Positions 40,905-51,021 of a stretch of 64,000 bases of DNA are shown in pieces. The notes below the pieces were generated by a model. The model was not told the DNA's origin. It made no database searches and saw nothing but the letters and a program-made list of their open reading frames with translations. Source of the DNA: Bacteroidia bacterium (GTDB lineage Bacteria; Bacteroidota; Bacteroidia; J057). The stretch spans positions 1-64,000 of the forward strand of contig JALEFZ010000025.1 in assembly GCA_022760475.1 (NCBI GenBank), written 5' to 3'. A program made the translations under genes and the position numbers. How positions within the stretch are numbered: position 1 is the first letter of the stretch; the number at the start of each line of letters is the position of its first letter.

Positions 40905-42311
40905 ATGGTTTTTAGCAGTGGACTCTTCCTGTTTTATTTTTTCCCTATTTTTCTACTGGGCTACCTTCTCATTCCACAAAAATGGAAGAACCCATATGCA
41001 CTAGTTGGAAGCCTTGGATTCTACACCTGGGGGGCACCCGAATTTCTTGTGTGGGTTATTGTCGGAATATTGGTAGACTATATTGTAAGCCGCCAGATCC
41101 ATTCTAATGAGCGACTCAAGTCTATACAATGGCTTTGGTTGGGACTGGCGTTGAACCTAGGCTTGCTCCTCTATTTCAAATATGCCAATTTCTTTGTCCT
41201 CAACCTCTTTCAGTTACTGGGCTTCGATAGTCAATTATGGGTCAATGTGATTCTGCCCCTGGGGATTTCCTTCTTTACTTTCCAAAAAATGAGCTACCTC
41301 ATAGATGTATACAGGAAAGAAGTAGAGGCTTCACAAAACATAGTAAACTATGCGCTTTACGTCCTGCTGTTTCCCCAACTCATTGCAGGACCTATTGTGC
41401 GATACAAAGAAATTGCAGCCCAGTTGCTGGACAGGAGTAAAATGGACAGAGATGTCCATGAAAAACTGGCAGGTTTGACTCGATTTGCGATTGGCCTTGC
41501 CAAAAAAGTACTCATCGCTGATGTCCTGGGGAGGCAAGTTGATCAATATTTCGGGCAGGAGGACCTGAGCAGCCCAATGGCATGGATCATCCTCTTATCC
41601 TGGGCCATGCAGATTTACTTTGATTTCTCTGGCTATTCAGACATGGCCATCGGTTTGGGTAGGATGATGGGATTCACCTTCCCTGAGAATTTTAACTTTC
41701 CCTATTTGGCTAGCAGCATCACTGATTTTTGGAGGAAATGGCACATTACCCTCTCCAATTGGATGCGCGATTACCTCTACATACCTCTTGGAGGCTCCAG
41801 GGGATTATCTCAAGGGCGCATTTTCGTAAATCTCTGGATTGTCTTCCTGGTATCAGGCCTTTGGCATGGAGCCTCCTGGAATTTTATCATATGGGGAGCC
41901 ATGCATGGCTTTTTCCTTAGCCTGGATCGCTTGGCAGGAGGAGAGCTGTTTGCCAGGCTAGGAAAAATTCCATCGGTACTCCTTACATTTTTGCTCAGCC
42001 TACTCACATGGGTAGTATTTCGAGCGGAGGATCTAAGTGAGTCCATTCAATATTACACCCAACTATTTGCCTTCGAGGGAGAAATGATTCCCCTGGATTC
42101 AGAGTTTTGGACGGTATTTTTCCTTGCGGCCATTTTATTAATATTGCCTGCTCTGGGACCAGTAAAAAAGCATTATCTGGCTTTGTGGGAGAATCGAAAA
42201 TCACTTCGCTTCAATTTCCTTCAATTTATCATAATTGCCACCTTGATGGCTTTGTCTGTTAGCGAAGTGATGATGGGAAGTTATTCGCCATTTATTTATT
42301 TTATTTTTTAA
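40905..42311 (+). CDS. MBOAT family O-acyltransferase (AlgI/DltB-like)
   Basis: A 468-aa polytopic inner-membrane protein with about 11 TM segments. It matches the AlgI class of membrane-bound O-acyltransferases that pass an acetyl group to the periplasm for polysaccharide O-acetylation. Diagnostic features are PLGISFFTFQKMSYLIDVYR, DFWRKWHITLSNWMRDYLYIPLGGSRG and the catalytic His in SGLWHGASWNFIIWGAMHG. Its stop overlaps the start of the AlgJ-like gene by 1 nt (TAATG), so the two are translationally coupled. Confidence 0.93.
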   Translation: MVFSSGLFLFYFFPIFLLGYLLIPQKWKNPYALVGSLGFYTWGAPEFLVWVIVGILVDYIVSRQIHSNERLKSIQWLWLGLALNLGLLLYFKYANFFVLNLFQLLGFDSQLWVNVILPLGISFFTFQKMSYLIDVYRKEVEASQNIVNYALYVLLFPQLIAGPIVRYKEIAAQLLDRSKMDRDVHEKLAGLTRFAIGLAKKVLIADVLGRQVDQYFGQEDLSSPMAWIILLSWAMQIYFDFSGYSDMAIGLGRMMGFTFPENFNFPYLASSITDFWRKWHITLSNWMRDYLYIPLGGSRGLSQGRIFVNLWIVFLVSGLWHGASWNFIIWGAMHGFFLSLDRLAGGELFARLGKIPSVLLTFLLSLLTWVVFRAEDLSESIQYYTQLFAFEGEMIPLDSEFWTVFFLAAILLILPALGPVKKHYLALWENRKSLRFNFLQFIIIATLMALSVSEVMMGSYSPFIYFIF

Positions 42312-43468
42312 TGAAAAAAAGAGCCTGGATACAAAAAATACCCTGGTTTTTGGCTGTTTTGGTGCTGCTACTGCCACTGATCTACCAATTGACGGAGTTT
42401 CATTGGGTCCGGAGCTTGAAAGGTTATCAGGCTCCTGCCAAAGATACGGCTTCTTTGGCGTGGGAGAATTTCATGGATCACAGCTTCCAGAATTATGAGG
42501 AGTCTCGCTTGAAGTATGATTTAAGGTTCAAACCCTTCTATGTCCGTCTCAACAATGAGCTAAAATACCAACTTTACGACAAGTTTACCCTGCCAGAAAT
42601 TACTGAGGGCAAAAACAGGTACCTCTACAGCCCGGCATCCATTCAGGCATATTATGGTGGGGAAAACATTGATAGCTCAAAGGTGGATCAGGAAATCAAA
42701 ACCTTACGTAAATCAATTGATAGGCTACAGGAGTCAGGGACCTCCTTTCTTTTTGTGATTGAGCCTTCCAAGCCTGGAGTATATCCCGAATACCTTCCTG
42801 ACTCAGATCAGCAAGTAGATAAGCCTTTTCCCTCTTATCATTTGTGGAAGTATTACCTGGAGAAGTATGAGATTCCCATCCTGGATACCTATTCCCTGTT
42901 TCAATCGTGGAAGGATACCACAGATATAGCCCTTTTTTGTAGTGGTGGCTATCACTGGTCTCAGGAATCTATCTACAAAGTATGGGATACACTCTACAGC
43001 AGGATTGAAGAAACAAGTACCAAATCATTGCCAGCATATTCCTATGGAGCACCAATTGTCAGCCAAAAACCCAATAAAATAGATCGTGACCTGGCGGATG
43101 CAGCCAACCTATTTTGGTCTTCATTGGTAAATGATACCTATGTCTATCCCCAAATAGAGGTGCAGCCAACTGAAGGTCCCAAGCCCAAAATTCTGTTGAT
43201 AGGGGATAGCTTTTTCTGGAATTTTCATGTGGATGACATTCCTAAGAAGTTTTTTGATGAGGATTTTTATTTTTGGTACTACTTTAACCAGGTATATGTA
43301 TCTGGAAAAAACCATTATACCAAAAGAAAGGAACCCCTGAAATTGGAGGATGCAATAGAAGGCACAGATGTGGTTATCCTAATGATGTTTCTAAATAATA
43401 TCCGATATGGTTGTTGGGGCTTTTTAGAGGAGTTGGAAAAAGTGACCTCAAAGGAAGATAAGTTGTAG
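42311..43468 (+). CDS. AlgX/AlgJ-like SGNH O-acetyltransferase partner
   Basis: A 385-aa protein with one N-terminal TM (IPWFLAVLVLLLPLIYQL) and a periplasmic SGNH-like domain. Visible active-site elements are ILLIGDSFFWNF (Ser in GDS) and the downstream-family CSGGYHWSQES (His in YHW) that completes the triad in AlgJ/AlgX relatives. It should transfer the acetyl group delivered by the MBOAT protein onto an exported glycan. It is coupled to the MBOAT gene by a 1-nt overlap. The acceptor polysaccharide is not encoded here; the surface-glycan genes at 10-12 kb are a possible link. Confidence 0.82.
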   Translation: MKKRAWIQKIPWFLAVLVLLLPLIYQLTEFHWVRSLKGYQAPAKDTASLAWENFMDHSFQNYEESRLKYDLRFKPFYVRLNNELKYQLYDKFTLPEITEGKNRYLYSPASIQAYYGGENIDSSKVDQEIKTLRKSIDRLQESGTSFLFVIEPSKPGVYPEYLPDSDQQVDKPFPSYHLWKYYLEKYEIPILDTYSLFQSWKDTTDIALFCSGGYHWSQESIYKVWDTLYSRIEETSTKSLPAYSYGAPIVSQKPNKIDRDLADAANLFWSSLVNDTYVYPQIEVQPTEGPKPKILLIGDSFFWNFHVDDIPKKFFDEDFYFWYYFNQVYVSGKNHYTKRKEPLKLEDAIEGTDVVILMMFLNNIRYGCWGFLEELEKVTSKEDKL

Positions 43469-43558: not shown

Positions 43559-46500
43559 ATGCAAGTATTGAAAACACTACCTATCCTGATTATCCTGTGT
43601 TTTTTCATATCAGCCTGTAGTTGGCATAGTGCCTATCGCAACTCCCTAAAGTCAAGGGATGCATATATCGAGGGAAAATACCTGGAAAGTAAGTCTTATC
43701 TGGAAACAGGAAATGCAATACTCAAAGAGAAGATAGATAAGAATCCCAACAGGGCTGAGTGGGTCAGGGAGGCCTATGTCATGCAGGAAGAGGGTGGGAT
43801 TCTGATCAGCGAGCAGTTGGGGAACTACCGAGAGGCAGCAGAAGTAGCTGCATTCTTGCTCAATTCTCCAGAAATGAACTCCCTGGATCCGGAGGGCTGC
43901 CTCAACTTACATGGCAATTTTATCAAAGCACTTAACCTTACTCGTCTGGGGGACCTCGACAATGCAAGGTTGATATTCAAGCAATTGGTGAGTACGGTTG
44001 GGGTCTATGAAAGTCGGGATTGGGAGGATGTTGATGGCTATCGTTTTGTTCGACTTATTTTTAAATCTGCCAAAAAGCCACATTGGTGGTATCCGCATGG
44101 CAATCAATTGATAGGCCTCAGCTTTTTTCTGGAAGGCCAAATTGATTCTGCAATGTATTATACCCGCACAGGTTATGACTATTGGCAAAAGGTATATGCC
44201 AGCGAACTCCTTATTCCCCAACAGCCTGAACTTCCCTTGGATATAGTTTTTTCGGAAAATGTTTCCTCACAAAGCAAAATTGGAGACCTCACGGGAATGT
44301 CTTTCATTGGTCCCAAGCTATTCGATATTTCGAAGGGAGCCATTGCAACCAACTATTTTGTAGGGGCACAATTGTGCAACAACATGGCTTTTGGAGCCCT
44401 TGAAGCCAGCCGCCAAAGTGAAGGCAATACAGCAGAAGCCCTGAGGCAGCAATCTCGTGAATACCTGCAACTAACTGCCTACTATATGGTGAAAGGGGAT
44501 TCTAGCCTACCCCAAATCCGGGAAAAATTCTACAAAAGGAAAAAGAAACTTGAGCAGGCAGGATGGAAGCGACTGCAGGGGAGATTTATGTATAATAAAG
44601 GAAAATTGGCTCTGGCAGAAAAAGATACCGCTGATGCTATTTCCTATTATTTGGAAGGAAGTCAGGTTTGGGACAGCCTGTATCGGGGACTCCACCCTGA
44701 CCTTGCCATTATAAACAATGAACTAGGTGATGTCTACCAGGCTAGAAATCAAAGGGATTCTGCTCGAATCATGTATAAAAAAGCCTTGGGAGCTGTATCA
44801 CTTGCTGCTCAAAAAGACAGCGATAAGGAATACCTTCGCCTGCCGGAAACAGTCTTGAGCCTCCAGAATTTTGCGCACAACCAGGCCCTGAATTTTTTTG
44901 AAGATCCAGAGAAGGTTGAAGATGGAGATGAAGCTTTAAGGGCTTATTTGGAGTCTGCAAGGATCATCCAAAACCTCAGTTCTGACTTTCATGGCCTCAA
45001 GTCAAAGGTTCAATTGTTAGAGAAGTTTATCTCCGATTACCAGGAAGGAGTGAAACTTGGGATTGCCTTGTACCAACAAACTGCTTCGCCCAAATACCAA
45101 GACATGGTCTTCCAACTCATGGAAAGCAATCGTGCCAGCTTACTCAATGAGAGGGTACGTAATATTGGTCAGCAATACCTCGAAGGAAAGGAAGAGTTGA
45201 AAGCCTTGGTTGCCAGAGCAAATGCCCTATCGGAGGAGTCCTATTTCGCAGAAGTAAGGAGCTTTACTCCTGAAGAAATTACAGAAAACGATGCCTACGA
45301 CACCATCATTACCAATAGTATAAAAAACAGGGAAAGAATTCGAAGAGACAGGGCTGAAGTTGATAGCCTCATTCGTCTAAGGTATCCCAATTATAAAGAC
45401 TATACCCAAACGCCTGCGCCCTTGGGCTTGGACGAATTCAGAAAACGGATTCCCGAGAACGTAGGCACCATCCAATACTTCTGGGGAGGGGAAAGTCTGT
45501 TTATGTTTGGATTATCTGGAAGATCCAGTAAACTGATGGAAGCAACTCTTTCACTGGATAGCATTGAAGCCAATATTTTTCACATCAAAAACTTGCTGAG
45601 CTATAATCCTGGTGACAAGAGGGTTGAAAGCAACTTTGTGGACCTGTATAAAAATTTCTACAAAGCTTCTAGTGAATTATATGACGAATTAGTAAGGCCA
45701 TTTTGGGAGGAGTGGAAAACTCAAGGAATAGAAGAGCTTGTATTTTTCCAGGATGGAAACTTGCATAGCCTCCCAATGGAAGTATTGATTCAAAGCCAGG
45801 CACTTGACCTCGATGACTTGGCAAGTGCAGATTGGGAATTGGATTATTTGATCAGAGATGTGGCTGTTAGCTATGAATCTTCACCAGCTTTATATGGGGC
45901 ATACCCCTATCAGGGTAACCCACAACATCCTTACCTGGGAATTGCCCCACCTTATAATCCTTTGCTGGGGTATTCCAAAAGCAGGAGTGAAGAATTATAC
46001 CCTGAGGAATTCCAACAGGTAGATTTTAAGGCGCTTCCCCATACCAAAGAAGAGGTAAATAAAGCTGCTAAATTGTTTGATGGGAGGACGCTCACCTCTG
46101 AGGCAGAAACGACAGAAGCCTATTTCAAAGAGATTGTTGCTCCCTACCAAATCCTGCATTTCGCCATGCACGGGGTATTGTCAACCTATGCCAATGCCAG
46201 TTCCGGGCTGGTTTTTCAGCAAAGCGAGGACAATAGAGTAGATGATATCCTCTTTGCCCATGAGATCATCGGCTTACCCTTGAACGCCGAAATGGTAGTT
46301 CTATCAGCCTGTGAGACAGGACTGGGGAACTACATGGTAGGAGAGGGGGTGCTAAGCATGGCAAGGGCATTTCGTGCCGCAGGTTGTCCTTCCGTCATGA
46401 TGACACTTTGGAAGGTAAGTGCCGACGGTGACAATCCAAACTTTCTCAGAACATTCTTCGAACACATAAAAAATGGTGAAAACAAGTCACAAGCTCTTAG

Positions 46501-46615
46501 AATGGCGAAATTGAGCTTCCTTCAGTCAGGAAAAACTACCATGAAGCATCCACATTTTTGGGCGCCGTTTGTATTGACTGGAAATAGTGATCCATTAGAC
46601 ATAATCAGTGATTAG
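43559..46615 (+). CDS. TPR-CHAT domain lipoprotein (caspase-like peptidase family)
   Basis: 1018 aa. A lipoprotein signal (LIILCFFISACSW, Cys20) precedes a long helical region with TPR-like repeats (~25-550), a coiled linker, and a C-terminal CHAT domain (~740-1010). The caspase-like dyad is present: His871 in HFAMHG and Cys918 in VVLSACETGLG, followed by the conserved GEGVLSMARAFRAAGCPSVMMTLWKV and the HPHFWAPFVLTG end motif. CHAT proteins are clan CD peptidases. Lipid anchoring to the envelope, unlike cytoplasmic CHAT defence proteases, points to an extracytoplasmic role. It converges on the sigma/TM-TPR/AMOP operon with a 12-bp gap. Substrate unknown. Confidence 0.9.
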   Translation: MQVLKTLPILIILCFFISACSWHSAYRNSLKSRDAYIEGKYLESKSYLETGNAILKEKIDKNPNRAEWVREAYVMQEEGGILISEQLGNYREAAEVAAFLLNSPEMNSLDPEGCLNLHGNFIKALNLTRLGDLDNARLIFKQLVSTVGVYESRDWEDVDGYRFVRLIFKSAKKPHWWYPHGNQLIGLSFFLEGQIDSAMYYTRTGYDYWQKVYASELLIPQQPELPLDIVFSENVSSQSKIGDLTGMSFIGPKLFDISKGAIATNYFVGAQLCNNMAFGALEASRQSEGNTAEALRQQSREYLQLTAYYMVKGDSSLPQIREKFYKRKKKLEQAGWKRLQGRFMYNKGKLALAEKDTADAISYYLEGSQVWDSLYRGLHPDLAIINNELGDVYQARNQRDSARIMYKKALGAVSLAAQKDSDKEYLRLPETVLSLQNFAHNQALNFFEDPEKVEDGDEALRAYLESARIIQNLSSDFHGLKSKVQLLEKFISDYQEGVKLGIALYQQTASPKYQDMVFQLMESNRASLLNERVRNIGQQYLEGKEELKALVARANALSEESYFAEVRSFTPEEITENDAYDTIITNSIKNRERIRRDRAEVDSLIRLRYPNYKDYTQTPAPLGLDEFRKRIPENVGTIQYFWGGESLFMFGLSGRSSKLMEATLSLDSIEANIFHIKNLLSYNPGDKRVESNFVDLYKNFYKASSELYDELVRPFWEEWKTQGIEELVFFQDGNLHSLPMEVLIQSQALDLDDLASADWELDYLIRDVAVSYESSPALYGAYPYQGNPQHPYLGIAPPYNPLLGYSKSRSEELYPEEFQQVDFKALPHTKEEVNKAAKLFDGRTLTSEAETTEAYFKEIVAPYQILHFAMHGVLSTYANASSGLVFQQSEDNRVDDILFAHEIIGLPLNAEMVVLSACETGLGNYMVGEGVLSMARAFRAAGCPSVMMTLWKVSADGDNPNFLRTFFEHIKNGENKSQALRMAKLSFLQSGKTTMKHPHFWAPFVLTGNSDPLDIISD

Positions 46616-46627
46616 GGTTTTTGAAGG

Positions 46628-47158
46628 TCAATCGCAGTTCTGGCCCGGGTTTGGAGGCCAGCCTTTGTGGTAAATAACCCATGCACTGTCAGGAGATTCC
46701 TTCAGCATTTTATTCCAGGGCTTTACATCCAGCAGGTAATGTTTTCGAACATCCTTCAGCCTGTACTTCATGTTTCCTTTTTTATTTTCTTGATAACAAG
46801 GAGAGACCTTGTCAGGAGTACCTGCTCCAGGCCCTGTCTTGATCAGTTTGCCTTCGGCGTCGTAGCAACATTGTTGGCCTGAATAGCCTGCGGTGGTTTG
46901 AGTCTGGGGATACGATCGAAAACATTCCACCGCACCGGGGTGATGTTTTGCCAGATTTCCTTTGTCTTTGGCCCAGCCATCATTCCTGGTCAAGCCCTTA
47001 AAATCTGGATTGGTGCAAGGACAATCCGGTAAAAGCTCATGCCAATTAGTGGTATCTATTAATTGAATCTGGTGAGGCCGATTATGAGGGGTTTCAACCT
47101 CATTTTTTGAGTCAATAGAAGGATGACCCCAGAGAAAAAGGAGTAGAAGTGTTAGCAT
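46628..47158 (-). CDS. Small exported AMOP-like cysteine-rich protein
   Basis: 176 aa. A short hydrophobic N-terminus (MLTLLLLFLWG) suggests export. The centre resembles the AMOP domain of MUC4 and other animal adhesion proteins: WHELLPDCPCTNPDF, GAVECFRS, then the hallmark SGQQCCYDAEGKLI and PDKVSPC, with Cys in paired positions for disulfides. Bacterial AMOP-like proteins are little studied. It is the last gene of the sigma/TM-TPR operon (18-bp gap) and converges with the CHAT gene. Assignment rests on motif pattern, not a search. Confidence 0.65.
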   Translation of the reverse strand: MLTLLLLFLWGHPSIDSKNEVETPHNRPHQIQLIDTTNWHELLPDCPCTNPDFKGLTRNDGWAKDKGNLAKHHPGAVECFRSYPQTQTTAGYSGQQCCYDAEGKLIKTGPGAGTPDKVSPCYQENKKGNMKYRLKDVRKHYLLDVKPWNKMLKESPDSAWVIYHKGWPPNPGQNCD

Positions 47159-47176
47159 ATTGTATATGGCTATATA

Positions 47177-48190
47177 TTAATCGTCCTTAGGGGCTATTTT
47201 TAGAAGAAGATCCTCTATCGCTGGCTTTAATTCCTTGACGTTACTTCTATTAGATAATTTTGTTAATAATGCTGATGCCTCTTTTTCTTCGTCATTGGCA
47301 ATCAGGGCGATGGCAAGCCACCATTTTACATCATTGCTATAAGTGTCAAATGCCAGAAATGGGATGCTTTTGTCCAGCTTCCTAAAATATTCCAATGCCT
47401 TTTCGTTTTTCCCTTCTACTAAATAATTGACCCCTAGGTAGAGACCTGCTTGGAGAGAATCGAATTTATTTTTTTGATCAGCTTGACCAAGAAAATCCTG
47501 AATTTCCCTTTTACTATCCTTGCCAGGTGTTTTAGCCCAGCTTTCCAATTGGGACCATTTCAGCTTTTTGAGCTTTTCCTCACTATCATCTCCCATATAA
47601 TTATTTCCACGGGTAGCTTGATACACCATGGAATACCTCATTTGACTTGTAGCAAGATATGAGACAAGCTCCTGCCTTTGAAATTTGGATGATTTAGGCT
47701 GGACTGGGGGGCTTTTCTTATTCTTAACTAATTTTCTGGGAATGATCTTTTGCTTGTTAGGCTGTTTTTCGTCCTGTTTCTTAATAGATTCACTCAGAAC
47801 CATTTTCTCCTTAGTCTCACTTTCGGCAGTACTATCCTTAACTGACTCTGAACTTAGGTCTGCCAAAGTTGAATTTAATGGAGTGCGGTTTTGATTTTGT
47901 AGCAAAAAATAAGATGCAATAAGGAGACCGATTACTGCTGCTGCGATTAGCCATGCCCTTCTCTGAAGCTTGAAACGCTTCGCTTGATGGCGATCCAGTT
48001 TTCTAAAACGATCGATTTCACTCTGCTTATGAAGGTTCTCACCATCTTCAAGGGCAAGCAGCATATTCAGCTCTTCCCTGGCAGAATCTTCTTCCAGCAG
48101 TTTCCGGATTTTTCCCTCGTCTTCAGCCTCTGTTTCTCCTTTAATGCCTCGGTGTAGTAGTTCCCAATAATCTTCTTCTTTATTGTCCAT
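47177..48190 (-). CDS. Single-pass membrane protein with TPR-like C-domain (anti-sigma-like position)
   Basis: 337 aa: a cytoplasmic acidic/helical head (~75 residues, ending in a basic HQAKRFKLQRR anchor), one TM helix (AWLIAAAVIGLLIASYFLL), a Lys/Glu/Ser-rich linker (~100-170), and a periplasmic helical region with TPR-like repeats (QAGLYLGVNYLVEGKNEKALEYFRKL, WWLAIALIANDEEKEASALLTKL). The topology and the position 10 bp after a sigma factor gene match an anti-sigma or sigma-signalling partner. No canonical anti-sigma domain (zinc ASD or FecR) is recognised, so this role is inferred. Confidence 0.65.
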   Translation of the reverse strand: MDNKEEDYWELLHRGIKGETEAEDEGKIRKLLEEDSAREELNMLLALEDGENLHKQSEIDRFRKLDRHQAKRFKLQRRAWLIAAAVIGLLIASYFLLQNQNRTPLNSTLADLSSESVKDSTAESETKEKMVLSESIKKQDEKQPNKQKIIPRKLVKNKKSPPVQPKSSKFQRQELVSYLATSQMRYSMVYQATRGNNYMGDDSEEKLKKLKWSQLESWAKTPGKDSKREIQDFLGQADQKNKFDSLQAGLYLGVNYLVEGKNEKALEYFRKLDKSIPFLAFDTYSNDVKWWLAIALIANDEEKEASALLTKLSNRSNVKELKPAIEDLLLKIAPKDD

Positions 48191-48200
48191 GACAAATACT

Positions 48201-48773
48201 TCAATTCTTTATACAGTCCTTGATGCCATTTTTGGCACGTCGGAAGATATTTCTCATACTGGCTGCTGATTTTACGGGAGATAGCAGCTCACCTCTTTCT
48301 TCCCAATCGTAATCGGGGGTCTTAACCCATAATTTCCAGACCGTTTGCTGTTCAGAACTTAAACGCTTCAAGCACTCAGCTATCAATTTCAGCAATTCCT
48401 GCTTCCTCTCAGCAGATAAACTGGCCTGCAATTCATTTTTAAAATTATTCCTCTCTACACTTTCTTCTTCTAATGGCGAAAACTGTACCCCACGTTGGGT
48501 GAATTTCAGCCAATCTCTTTTAAGTATGGTATAGAAATAGGGACCAATTTTTCTTGTTCCCACATCAAAGATTCCCAGCTTGGCTTTTTCTCTCAATTTG
48601 TAAAAGGCGTCAAACCAGATAACGTCTACCTCCATTTCAAAATCAGCAATCCCAAAAGTGCTTGCCCAGGAGAGAAACATCTGATAGTACCTTCTTTTCA
48701 AATAATCCAGGGCCTTTCCAATCTGTAAATCATTTTCGGAAACAATAAAGGTTTTAAGCTTAGGATCGTTCAT
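48201..48773 (-). CDS. Sigma-70 family (ECF-like) RNA polymerase sigma factor
   Basis: A 190-aa protein with the two-domain layout of small sigma factors. The region-2-like helix set is at ~20-90 (DEMEVDVIWFDAFYKLREKAKLGIFDVGTRKIGPYFYTILKRDWLKF), where the aromatic/basic run resembles the 2.4 promoter-melting helix. The region-4-like end is at ~125-185 (LIAECLKRLSSEQQTVWKLWVK, SMRNIFRRAKNGIKDCI), with a divergent helix-turn-helix. It is first in a three-gene operon with the TM-TPR and AMOP-like genes, and its upstream region holds a 10-bp inverted repeat. Confidence 0.72.
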   Translation of the reverse strand: MNDPKLKTFIVSENDLQIGKALDYLKRRYYQMFLSWASTFGIADFEMEVDVIWFDAFYKLREKAKLGIFDVGTRKIGPYFYTILKRDWLKFTQRGVQFSPLEEESVERNNFKNELQASLSAERKQELLKLIAECLKRLSSEQQTVWKLWVKTPDYDWEERGELLSPVKSAASMRNIFRRAKNGIKDCIKN

Positions 48774-48806
48774 GGTCTATCTTATATATCCCATCATTCC
48801 TGTGAA

Positions 48807-48851
48807 TGTAACGCTAAAAAAAAAATAAAAAAAAATTACTATAGCGTTACA
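48807..48851. promoter_or_regulatory. Perfect 10-bp inverted repeat in divergent promoter region
   Basis: TGTAACGCTA (48807-48816) and TAGCGTTACA (48842-48851) are exact inverted copies separated by 25 nt of nearly pure A. TGTAAC resembles ECF-sigma -35 elements, so each arm could direct one of the divergent genes, or the pair could be an operator. It is centred 56 bp from the sigma gene start. Confidence 0.5.
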
Positions 48852-48975
48852 TCTGCCTGCTGCACGGGATAGTATTGGTGAAGGCGCTTTTATGCACCCG
48901 ATTTTTTAACTCCATTCAGTAGGTATACTTAATTAATGTCTCTAGAAGTAATCTAATACCAAACACACGAGAAAG

Positions 48976-51021
48976 ATGAGAAGTAATTCGAAAAGATTAT
49001 CCAAAAATTTTTCAAAGATCATCACCCTCCTCCTTATACCGATGATCTTTACCTCTTGCTATACTAGAAAAGCCGTAGTCTCCAGTTCCAGGCCGATCCA
49101 TTCGGGAGCGATGAAAGTCAATCCCAAATGGCATCGTAAACCAAGCATCCTAACTTGGTCAATGCCTGTGACCTGGGGACTCGCCGGTTATGGCGCAGGC
49201 TATTATGCAGGAAAGGCGGGAAGAAATACAAATGGTCTTTCCGCGACCGACAATGGAATTTACCTGGGAGTGATTACTGGAGCCTTAGCGACTTCTCTAC
49301 TTTTCAAAATGGCAAAATCTGGACAATTAAATACACGTTCAGAAAGTGTTACGGCTACAGATTGGAACAAATGGCTTCGAAAGTATGACGCCACCCATAG
49401 AGGAAATTATGTATTGATTGATAATTCGCCTTATGGAGGTCCATTGATCGCTCCTAAGAAACGAGTTGATGAATTCTGGGGTGTAGAGAGGCAAAATCAA
49501 TTTGATGCCCTGGTTAAAAAAGGAGACCAATCCAGAAGATCACGCTATTTCGACCAGGCCATCAGCAATTACCAACGGGCCCTCAATATGAATGTCAACA
49601 ACCTACTGGCTCGGCACAAGATTCAGGAGACATATTCAGATGAGTTTCGATATTATATGAACCAGGGAAACAATGCCATTCGCAATGGAAATTTCTACGC
49701 AGCCCGCAACTGGTATCAAAGAGGGTTGAACATGGGCGTTCAGGGCAACAGTTCTGAAGCGCGCAACCTGATCGATGAGATCCCACGCAAGGAATACATG
49801 TATTATATAGATAAGGCCAATGAGGCTTTTGCAAATGAAGACTACGATAAGGCGCTCAGATATTTGGACAAAGCTCGAGGCTTAAACTACTCTGGAGATG
49901 ATGGCTATGCATCAAGGAGGTATGATGAAGTCATGAAAGAAAAAAGCTGGTTGCTAAGGCATGTTACCAAGTTTTGGATGGAAGGCTTATTCGAAGATAA
50001 GGTATTCTCTTCCTTTGTGCTAAGCCGCGAGGCCTCCCTGGGGACCAAGGGCGACATGAGCAACCAAATGATGCTCTACATCGAATCAGAAAGAGAAATG
50101 GACATCAACTTTCAGATTGTCCCATCAGAGGAGAAATTCCTTAAAATGATGCCCCCCCAAAGTATTCACCTGAAAAAAGGCCTGAATTGGATCATCCCCG
50201 ATATTGCCTGGAAACGAGAAGCCTTGTCTGGTCAGATAAGTAATGCCACACTGGAGTTGAGCATTCTTTTGACAGATGAGTCCAACAAGACCAAAACAAA
50301 AGCAGAAAAGATTGAATTGATGAATGTCAACCAATGTATCCTAATGGCAAGGGCAGGCAAGGAGAAAAAAGCCTACAACTTTAAGGAAATGCTGGCTGCC
50401 TATGTGCAAGAGACGCATCCTGAGATTGACAAAATCCTGAAAGAAGCCATGGATAAAGGATATATAAATGGGGTGGTCGGTTATCAGGCAGGAGCCCAGT
50501 ATGTAGACAAACAGGTTTCGGCTGTTTTCAGGGTCTTGCATGACCGCGGATTCAGGTATGCAAGCAGAATCATTGAAACCGAAAACGAGAACATTGCTTA
50601 CCAGGAAGTTTACACCATTTCTCAATCCCTTGATATGAAGGCCGGTAACTGTATTGATGGTACTGTCCTGATGGCTTCTGTCCTGATGAGAATGGGCATA
50701 CGACCTGTAATTGTGGTAAGACCTGGCCATGCCTACCTGGCGTACTATAGGTATCCAGCATCAAGCCAGCGAAATGACCTCGGCTTTGTGGAGACTACAA
50801 TGGTCGGCATGTCCCTGGGGATAAATGGAAAGGCAGAAAACAAGATGACCAGAAACGAAAAGGATCTTGGTTTTGAAAATTTGTTCATGAAGGCCCAAAA
50901 TAAGGCTCATAGCGATTTCAAGGACTACGTATATAAGGACCAACTTGAAATGTACGACATAGTCGCACTTAGAAAGAAGGTAAAGCCCATTGTATTCAAC
51001 GATTTAGTTTTAGGGAGATAA
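48976..51021 (+). CDS. Lipoprotein with TPR-like repeats and transglutaminase-like core
   Basis: 681 aa. A lipoprotein signal (IITLLLIPMIFTSC) is followed by a glycine-rich hydrophobic segment at ~60-115 (PVTWGLAGYGAGYYAGKAG, GVITGALATSLLF), TPR-like repeats (~175-310; AISNYQRALNMNVNNLLARH, AARNWYQRGLNMG, ALRYLDKARGLN), a beta domain, and at ~545-640 a transglutaminase/cysteine-protease-like core. Cys559 (GNCIDGTVLMASVLMRMGI), His585 (PGHAYLAYY) and Glu606 (VETTMV) have the order and spacing expected of the catalytic triad. The molecular function is unknown; protein cross-linking or proteolysis at the envelope is possible. It is divergent from the sigma operon. Confidence 0.72.
   Translation: MRSNSKRLSKNFSKIITLLLIPMIFTSCYTRKAVVSSSRPIHSGAMKVNPKWHRKPSILTWSMPVTWGLAGYGAGYYAGKAGRNTNGLSATDNGIYLGVITGALATSLLFKMAKSGQLNTRSESVTATDWNKWLRKYDATHRGNYVLIDNSPYGGPLIAPKKRVDEFWGVERQNQFDALVKKGDQSRRSRYFDQAISNYQRALNMNVNNLLARHKIQETYSDEFRYYMNQGNNAIRNGNFYAARNWYQRGLNMGVQGNSSEARNLIDEIPRKEYMYYIDKANEAFANEDYDKALRYLDKARGLNYSGDDGYASRRYDEVMKEKSWLLRHVTKFWMEGLFEDKVFSSFVLSREASLGTKGDMSNQMMLYIESEREMDINFQIVPSEEKFLKMMPPQSIHLKKGLNWIIPDIAWKREALSGQISNATLELSILLTDESNKTKTKAEKIELMNVNQCILMARAGKEKKAYNFKEMLAAYVQETHPEIDKILKEAMDKGYINGVVGYQAGAQYVDKQVSAVFRVLHDRGFRYASRIIETENENIAYQEVYTISQSLDMKAGNCIDGTVLMASVLMRMGIRPVIVVRPGHAYLAYYRYPASSQRNDLGFVETTMVGMSLGINGKAENKMTRNEKDLGFENLFMKAQNKAHSDFKDYVYKDQLEMYDIVALRKKVKPIVFNDLVLGR

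Follow-up and report, generated by a model that had tools for sequence, protein, structure and literature searches.

What does a CHAT peptidase, predicted to be anchored in the cell envelope, do beside the gene of a sigma factor? CHAT proteases are mostly known for their part in cytoplasmic, CRISPR-linked defence. The combination is found in a 64,000-nucleotide stretch of the genome of a Bacteroidia bacterium (GTDB J057; assembly GCA_022760475.1, contig JALEFZ010000025.1, positions 1 to 64,000; hereafter the window), in which five adjacent genes encode a TPR-CHAT protein, an AMOP-like secreted protein, a transmembrane protein with a TPR domain (TM-TPR), a small sigma factor and a transglutaminase-like lipoprotein. 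The initial annotation had proposed that the five genes form a single envelope signalling system. Our results delimit a real three-gene module, composed of the sigma, TM-TPR and CHAT genes, plus two bystander genes.

Recurrence and linkage of the three genes

An open reading frame check of the window recovered all five genes at the positions given in Table 1. The sigma, TM-TPR and AMOP-like genes follow each other on the minus strand with spacers of 10 and 18 bp, which gives them the appearance of one operon. The CHAT gene converges on this set from the plus strand, leaving 12 bp between the ends, and the transglutaminase-like gene departs on the plus strand across a 202-bp divergent region from sigma.

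We examined the surroundings of the CHAT genes in the same genome, which has 17 of them (some genomes of the family reach 35-39), and found the sigma gene followed by TM-TPR beside CHAT at five other places. A comparison of 13 family genomes, holding 95 strong TM-TPR genes and 137 CHAT domains, placed 47 of the 95 TM-TPR genes at most 6 kb from a CHAT domain, where about 3.5 were expected. In the fetched loci 46 of 47 TM-TPR genes are immediately preceded by a sigma gene, and most of the gaps fall between −11 and 33 bp. The relative orientation of TM-TPR and CHAT genes within 8 kb is variable: 16 convergent, as in the window, 24 divergent and 10 on the same strand. The linkage persists although the order and strand of the genes change, which points to selection on having them together. 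Congruently, an independent scan of 84,980 species showed the sigma/TM-TPR pair in 45 of 79 organism-labelled Bacteroidota CHAT loci, a lower bound since some loci are cut by contig ends. These pair-carrying loci belong to Saprospiraceae, Lewinella, Chitinophagales, Fulvivirga and other Cytophagales, Flagellimonas/Muricauda (Flavobacteriales) and Solitalea. The part of the initial annotation in which an envelope CHAT is paired with a dedicated sigma factor and a TPR partner in the membrane was therefore borne out, as a recurring module in the genome itself, in the family and in several Bacteroidota orders. We consider it very probable that sigma, TM-TPR and CHAT work together. Sigma/TM-TPR pairs with no CHAT gene nearby (loci L151-L154) indicate that the pair belongs to a larger family with other partners.

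The three proteins and their co-divergence

The window sigma protein has no Pfam sigma match, and TIGR02985 and TIGR02937 match it below cut-off only. It was found at E 1.2e-12 by a leave-one-out hidden Markov model (HMM) built from 45 other loci, and several of its paralogues exceed the Pfam cut-offs for sigma-70 r2/r4. From these matches it is best described as a very divergent sigma-70 factor that resembles the extracytoplasmic function (ECF) group.

The window TM-TPR protein was likewise recovered by a leave-one-out profile of 45 TM-TPR proteins (E 6.6e-19), and has a single transmembrane helix near residue 79. Its AlphaFold2 model (mean predicted local distance difference test score, pLDDT, 73.3) consists of a helical head, a long membrane-crossing helix and a TPR domain; Foldseek and VIA-align searches with this model list almost only TPR proteins, and these lists are uninformative on the fold of the head. 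Among 73 triads of sigma, TM-TPR and CHAT, with one transmembrane helix after the head, the head side is the more positive in 68, which by the positive-inside rule puts the head in the cytoplasm and the TPRs on the envelope side. NCBIfam antisigma models match 23 of 42 TM-TPR relatives, spanning residues 5-126 in the six for which ranges are printed, and zf-HC2 matches nine of 27 heads. Adjacency, charge distribution and family antisigma matches together give the sigma factor a neighbouring single-pass partner with a cytoplasmic head, and TM-TPR is probably its anti-sigma factor.

The third protein matches Pfam CHAT at E 1.6e-52, and TPR_12 is also above its cut-off. An AlphaFold2 model of it (mean pLDDT 73.8) was compared by VIA-align with Csx29 (Z 25.5, root-mean-square deviation [rmsd] 6.7, 527 residues), separase (Z 24.1, rmsd 3.6, 315 residues) and DdvA (Z 20.2, rmsd 15.4, 462 residues). 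The protein has the CHAT fold and the Cys/His dyad of the CHAT cysteine protease family (HFAMHG...LSACETG; His871 and Cys918), and this dyad is kept in all 48 complete module CHATs. A search with the window CHAT alone returned no close relatives. Among the long module CHAT proteins an N-terminal hydrophobic segment was called in 63 of 69 and a C-terminal transmembrane helix in 53 of 69, with more positive charge after that helix in 47 of the 53; this arrangement indicates that the CHAT domain faces the envelope. The anchoring of the window protein is atypical in this respect, since by hydropathy and motif it has a lipobox-like start (...LCFFISAC/SWHS) and no C-terminal transmembrane helix. We predict it to be an envelope-anchored cysteine protease.

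CHAT proteins of other kinds were also seen. In the same genome a CHAT of another type (L007:2709-8271; 1232 aa, no transmembrane helix) lies just after a gene whose product begins FDYFISH and is possibly TIR-like, a defence-like pair. Short CHATs at L017, L018, L019 and L020 (open frames of ~316-517 aa) are cytoplasmic-looking and probably represent another class.

We then compared distance matrices for the parts of the 73 triads. The partial correlation was 0.47 between sigma and head and 0.31 between TPR and CHAT, and near zero for sigma and CHAT (0.05) and for head and CHAT (0.07). Sigma thus tracks the head and CHAT tracks the TPR part, the pattern expected if the head contacts sigma inside the membrane and the TPR domain contacts CHAT outside it. 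Within one genome that holds 12 modules, the correlation between sigma and TM-TPR was above all but 2 of 2000 shuffles and that between TM-TPR and CHAT above all but 3; the sigma-CHAT correlation was unremarkable (257 of 2000). Duplication of whole modules can also yield co-divergence, and since it adds to the correlations, the contrast between pairs weighs more than the values.

Precedents and the possible action of CHAT

The module CHAT profile matched a single PDB sequence, DdvA of Myxococcus xanthus (E 0.001, a weak match), and the aligned part of DdvA retains the His and the Cys. Genetically, DdvA is the anti-sigma factor of the ECF factor DdvS, which becomes active once DdvA is inactivated (PMC4374960). 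The DdvS/DdvA system (PDB 8rot, 8rw5) has an ECF sigma factor, a transmembrane anti-sigma protein and a CHAT domain; the module matches these with an ECF-like sigma factor, a predicted transmembrane anti-sigma protein and a CHAT domain. In DdvA, however, the anti-sigma part, transmembrane helix and CHAT are in one chain, whereas the module divides them between two genes: the candidate anti-sigma protein carries a TPR domain of its own, the TPR-CHAT protein is secreted and has a separate anchor, and in Bacteroidota the module has multiplied to many copies per genome. That the parts are fused in one case and split in the other supports a contact between TM-TPR and CHAT, yet a single-chain CHAT anti-sigma factor of the DdvA type was rejected as an identity for the window genes, the parts being encoded by two of them. 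The Bacteroidota module looks like a split, expanded relative of the fused DdvA arrangement.

In Craspase, a TPR-CHAT protease is able to cut a sigma inhibitor (PMC10028731). Its components Csx29, Csx30 and CASP-sigma correspond to those of the module in that both have a TPR-CHAT protease, a sigma-inhibiting partner (a candidate one in the module) and an ECF sigma factor (ECF-like in the module); Craspase is RNA-guided, whereas the module has an anti-sigma candidate that spans the membrane and a CHAT that faces the envelope. Identity of the window CHAT with Csx29 was discarded (NF041237, 23.3 bits against a cut-off of 300), and neither Cas7-11 nor Csx30 was noticed in the loci that we read, nor Cas7-11 among seven scanned proteins around the locus, where no dedicated search was made for it. 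The proteolysis of RseA by DegS and RseP, and that of RsiW, shares with the proposed module a single-pass anti-sigma protein and an envelope-facing protease as first cutter; in place of the PDZ serine protease DegS, the module would use a TPR-bearing CHAT cysteine protease, whose cut we infer.

In view of these systems, the claim of the initial annotation that an envelope CHAT with its own sigma factor would be wholly new is not supported. We found no description of the Bacteroidota module in the literature searched, whose coverage leaves out most subscription journals and preprints. The general idea has antecedents, namely DdvA and the gene context of the ECF54 group, which includes CHAT, subtilase and carboxypeptidase and is described without an anti-sigma factor (PMC8999054). 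The likeness to ECF54 lies in a CHAT gene near the sigma factor; the module, by contrast, hardly ever lacks a candidate for a membrane anti-sigma factor. In a survey of caspase homologues from prokaryotes, metacaspase operons of Myxococcus were noted to include sigma factors, and Haliscomenobacter to have 28 metacaspases (PMC3501461).

Taking the computed gene linkage, topology, intact dyad and paired co-divergence of head with sigma and of TPR with CHAT as its base, we infer an anti-sigma activity, a cleavage and an order of events. At rest, the anti-sigma protein would keep sigma at the membrane via its cytoplasmic head. CHAT would be activated by a cue in the envelope, for which either its own TPR domain or that of the anti-sigma protein would be the sensor, and would then cut, or remodel, the anti-sigma protein on its envelope side; further degradation by intramembrane and cytoplasmic proteases would free sigma. 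That CHAT processes TM-TPR had been suggested in the initial annotation and is also the mechanism that we favour. For the release of sigma by a protease, Csx29/Csx30/CASP-sigma and DegS/RseA offer precedents (PMC10028731). To the whole explanation, a three-gene module in which CHAT acts on the anti-sigma protein to release sigma, we assign an even chance; that CHAT does so by cleavage is near that level or somewhat under it.

Several results weigh against this explanation. The partial correlation between sigma and TPR is still 0.27 in the 73 triads. The antisigma matches of the TM-TPR relatives are all below the curated cut-off and the window protein has no direct anti-sigma match, so that its anti-sigma identity is predicted at the level of the family; a PDB search with a profile built on the head alone returned weak matches, protein A repeats among them, and no convincing anti-sigma structure. 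The calls of signal peptides, lipoboxes and transmembrane helices come from hydropathy and motifs. Moreover, CHAT is seldom inside the sigma operon, and roughly one TM-TPR gene in two lacks a CHAT gene in its vicinity, from which it follows that the pair is able to work without it.

This last point also favours an explanation in which CHAT is an output of the system: sigma would switch on its own CHAT gene, and CHAT would process envelope or type IX-secreted proteins and leave the anti-sigma protein untouched. In agreement with it, the CHAT gene frequently lies on the other strand and has a promoter region to itself (34 of 46 are convergent or divergent), and large secreted proteins, a loosely linked set, recur beside about 26 module loci; the one secreted neighbour tested (L138:6463-7407) bears a type IX secretion sorting domain. 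On the other hand, CHAT diverges in step with the TPR part that the anti-sigma protein has in the envelope and not with sigma, the DdvA fusion argues for direct contact, and inspection by eye of the regions upstream of the sigma, CHAT and paralogue genes showed no shared ECF promoter motif. We regard CHAT as an output as unlikely.

The DdvA fusion and the co-divergence of TPR and CHAT would also suit a CHAT that cuts nothing and serves as a sensor or adaptor, binding the TPR domain and switching the anti-sigma protein by conformation, as may happen within the single chain of DdvA. A pure scaffold, however, would not need the dyad that is invariant in every complete module CHAT, and we find this alternative rather improbable. 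That all five genes are one envelope system, of which the AMOP-like and transglutaminase-like proteins would be conserved members, is very improbable. It has some support in this species (the operon position of the AMOP-like gene and an inverted repeat in the sigma/transglutaminase-like promoter region that is compatible with joint control), but the proposal is contradicted at the level of conservation, as described below.

The neighbouring genes and the reach of the module

Table 1. Features of the locus, in coordinates of the window.
Feature	Position	Strand	Evidence
TPR-CHAT protein, predicted envelope lipoprotein	43559..46615	+	Pfam, Cys/His dyad, AlphaFold2 model
Secreted protein with an AMOP domain, in third place in the sigma operon, local addition outside the core	46628..47158	-	Pfam AMOP
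Head-TM-TPR protein, predicted anti-sigma factor	47177..48190	-	Leave-one-out HMM, family antisigma matches, positive-inside rule, AlphaFold2 model
ECF-like sigma-70 factor (predicted), first gene of the operon	48201..48773	-	Leave-one-out HMM, paralogues, adjacency
Perfect 11-bp inverted repeat, ATGTAACGCTA-25 nt-TAGCGTTACAT, possible shared regulatory site	48806..48852	.	Sigma/transglutaminase-like divergent promoter region
TPR/transglutaminase-like lipoprotein, divergent neighbour outside the core	48976..51021	+	Homologue alignment, sub-threshold Pfam

The co-occurrence on which the five-gene proposal depended was not observed. Sigma, TM-TPR and CHAT recur jointly far above chance; homologues of the AMOP-like and transglutaminase-like genes were absent from the other fetched module loci, including the sibling modules, and from the 79 organism-labelled loci, and elsewhere they have other neighbours. 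The AMOP-like protein matches Pfam AMOP above cut-off (E 1.1e-10) and has homologues with 49-50% identity in three other genomes of the class (L046-L048). None of the three has CHAT, sigma or TM-TPR nearby, and the one in L046 comes after the genes of a TonB-dependent receptor and a DUF4249 lipoprotein. Together with the window gene they outline a small bacterial AMOP-domain family of ~180 aa; the AMOP domain is mainly familiar from animal proteins.

The transglutaminase-like gene is present as a single copy in its genome and has strong homologues in four other genomes among 198 class genomes searched, all unlinked to CHAT or TM-TPR. In Pfam it gave sub-threshold matches only (DUF553, 0.008); five sequences nevertheless share, without exception, a Cys, a His and an acidic residue, which makes a transglutaminase-like fold likely. 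Residues ~401-597 match the N-terminal part of the NCBIfam model anti-phage ProA (NF058533, E 2e-21, far below cut-off), as do the Bacteroidia homologues; the meaning of anti-phage ProA was not found in the literature searched. None of the five proteins matched a PADLOC protein model of a known defence system. The 11-bp half-site of the inverted repeat between the sigma and transglutaminase-like genes occurs nowhere else in the 6.86-Mb genome, which leaves room for local joint control of the two genes. Overall, the AMOP-like and transglutaminase-like genes are probably neighbours of the module, at most lineage-specific targets. Directly upstream of CHAT, an MBOAT O-acyltransferase and an AlgX-like SGNH protein (40905-43468) probably form a separate polysaccharide-acetylation pair.

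In its most general form, our proposal is that a separately encoded, envelope-anchored CHAT of the separase/caspase-like kind is the first cutter of membrane anti-sigma factors in Bacteroidota, with many parallel, specificity-matched modules per genome, the split counterpart of a machinery that occurs fused in DdvA and guided by RNA in Craspase. We hold this tentatively, at less than an even chance. If true, the module would account for part of the large unexplained expansion of CHAT genes, up to dozens of copies, in Saprospiraceae-type bacteria; the proteases of transmembrane sigma signalling would gain a new class, and DdvA of Myxococcus and Craspase would be connected as variants of a single design.

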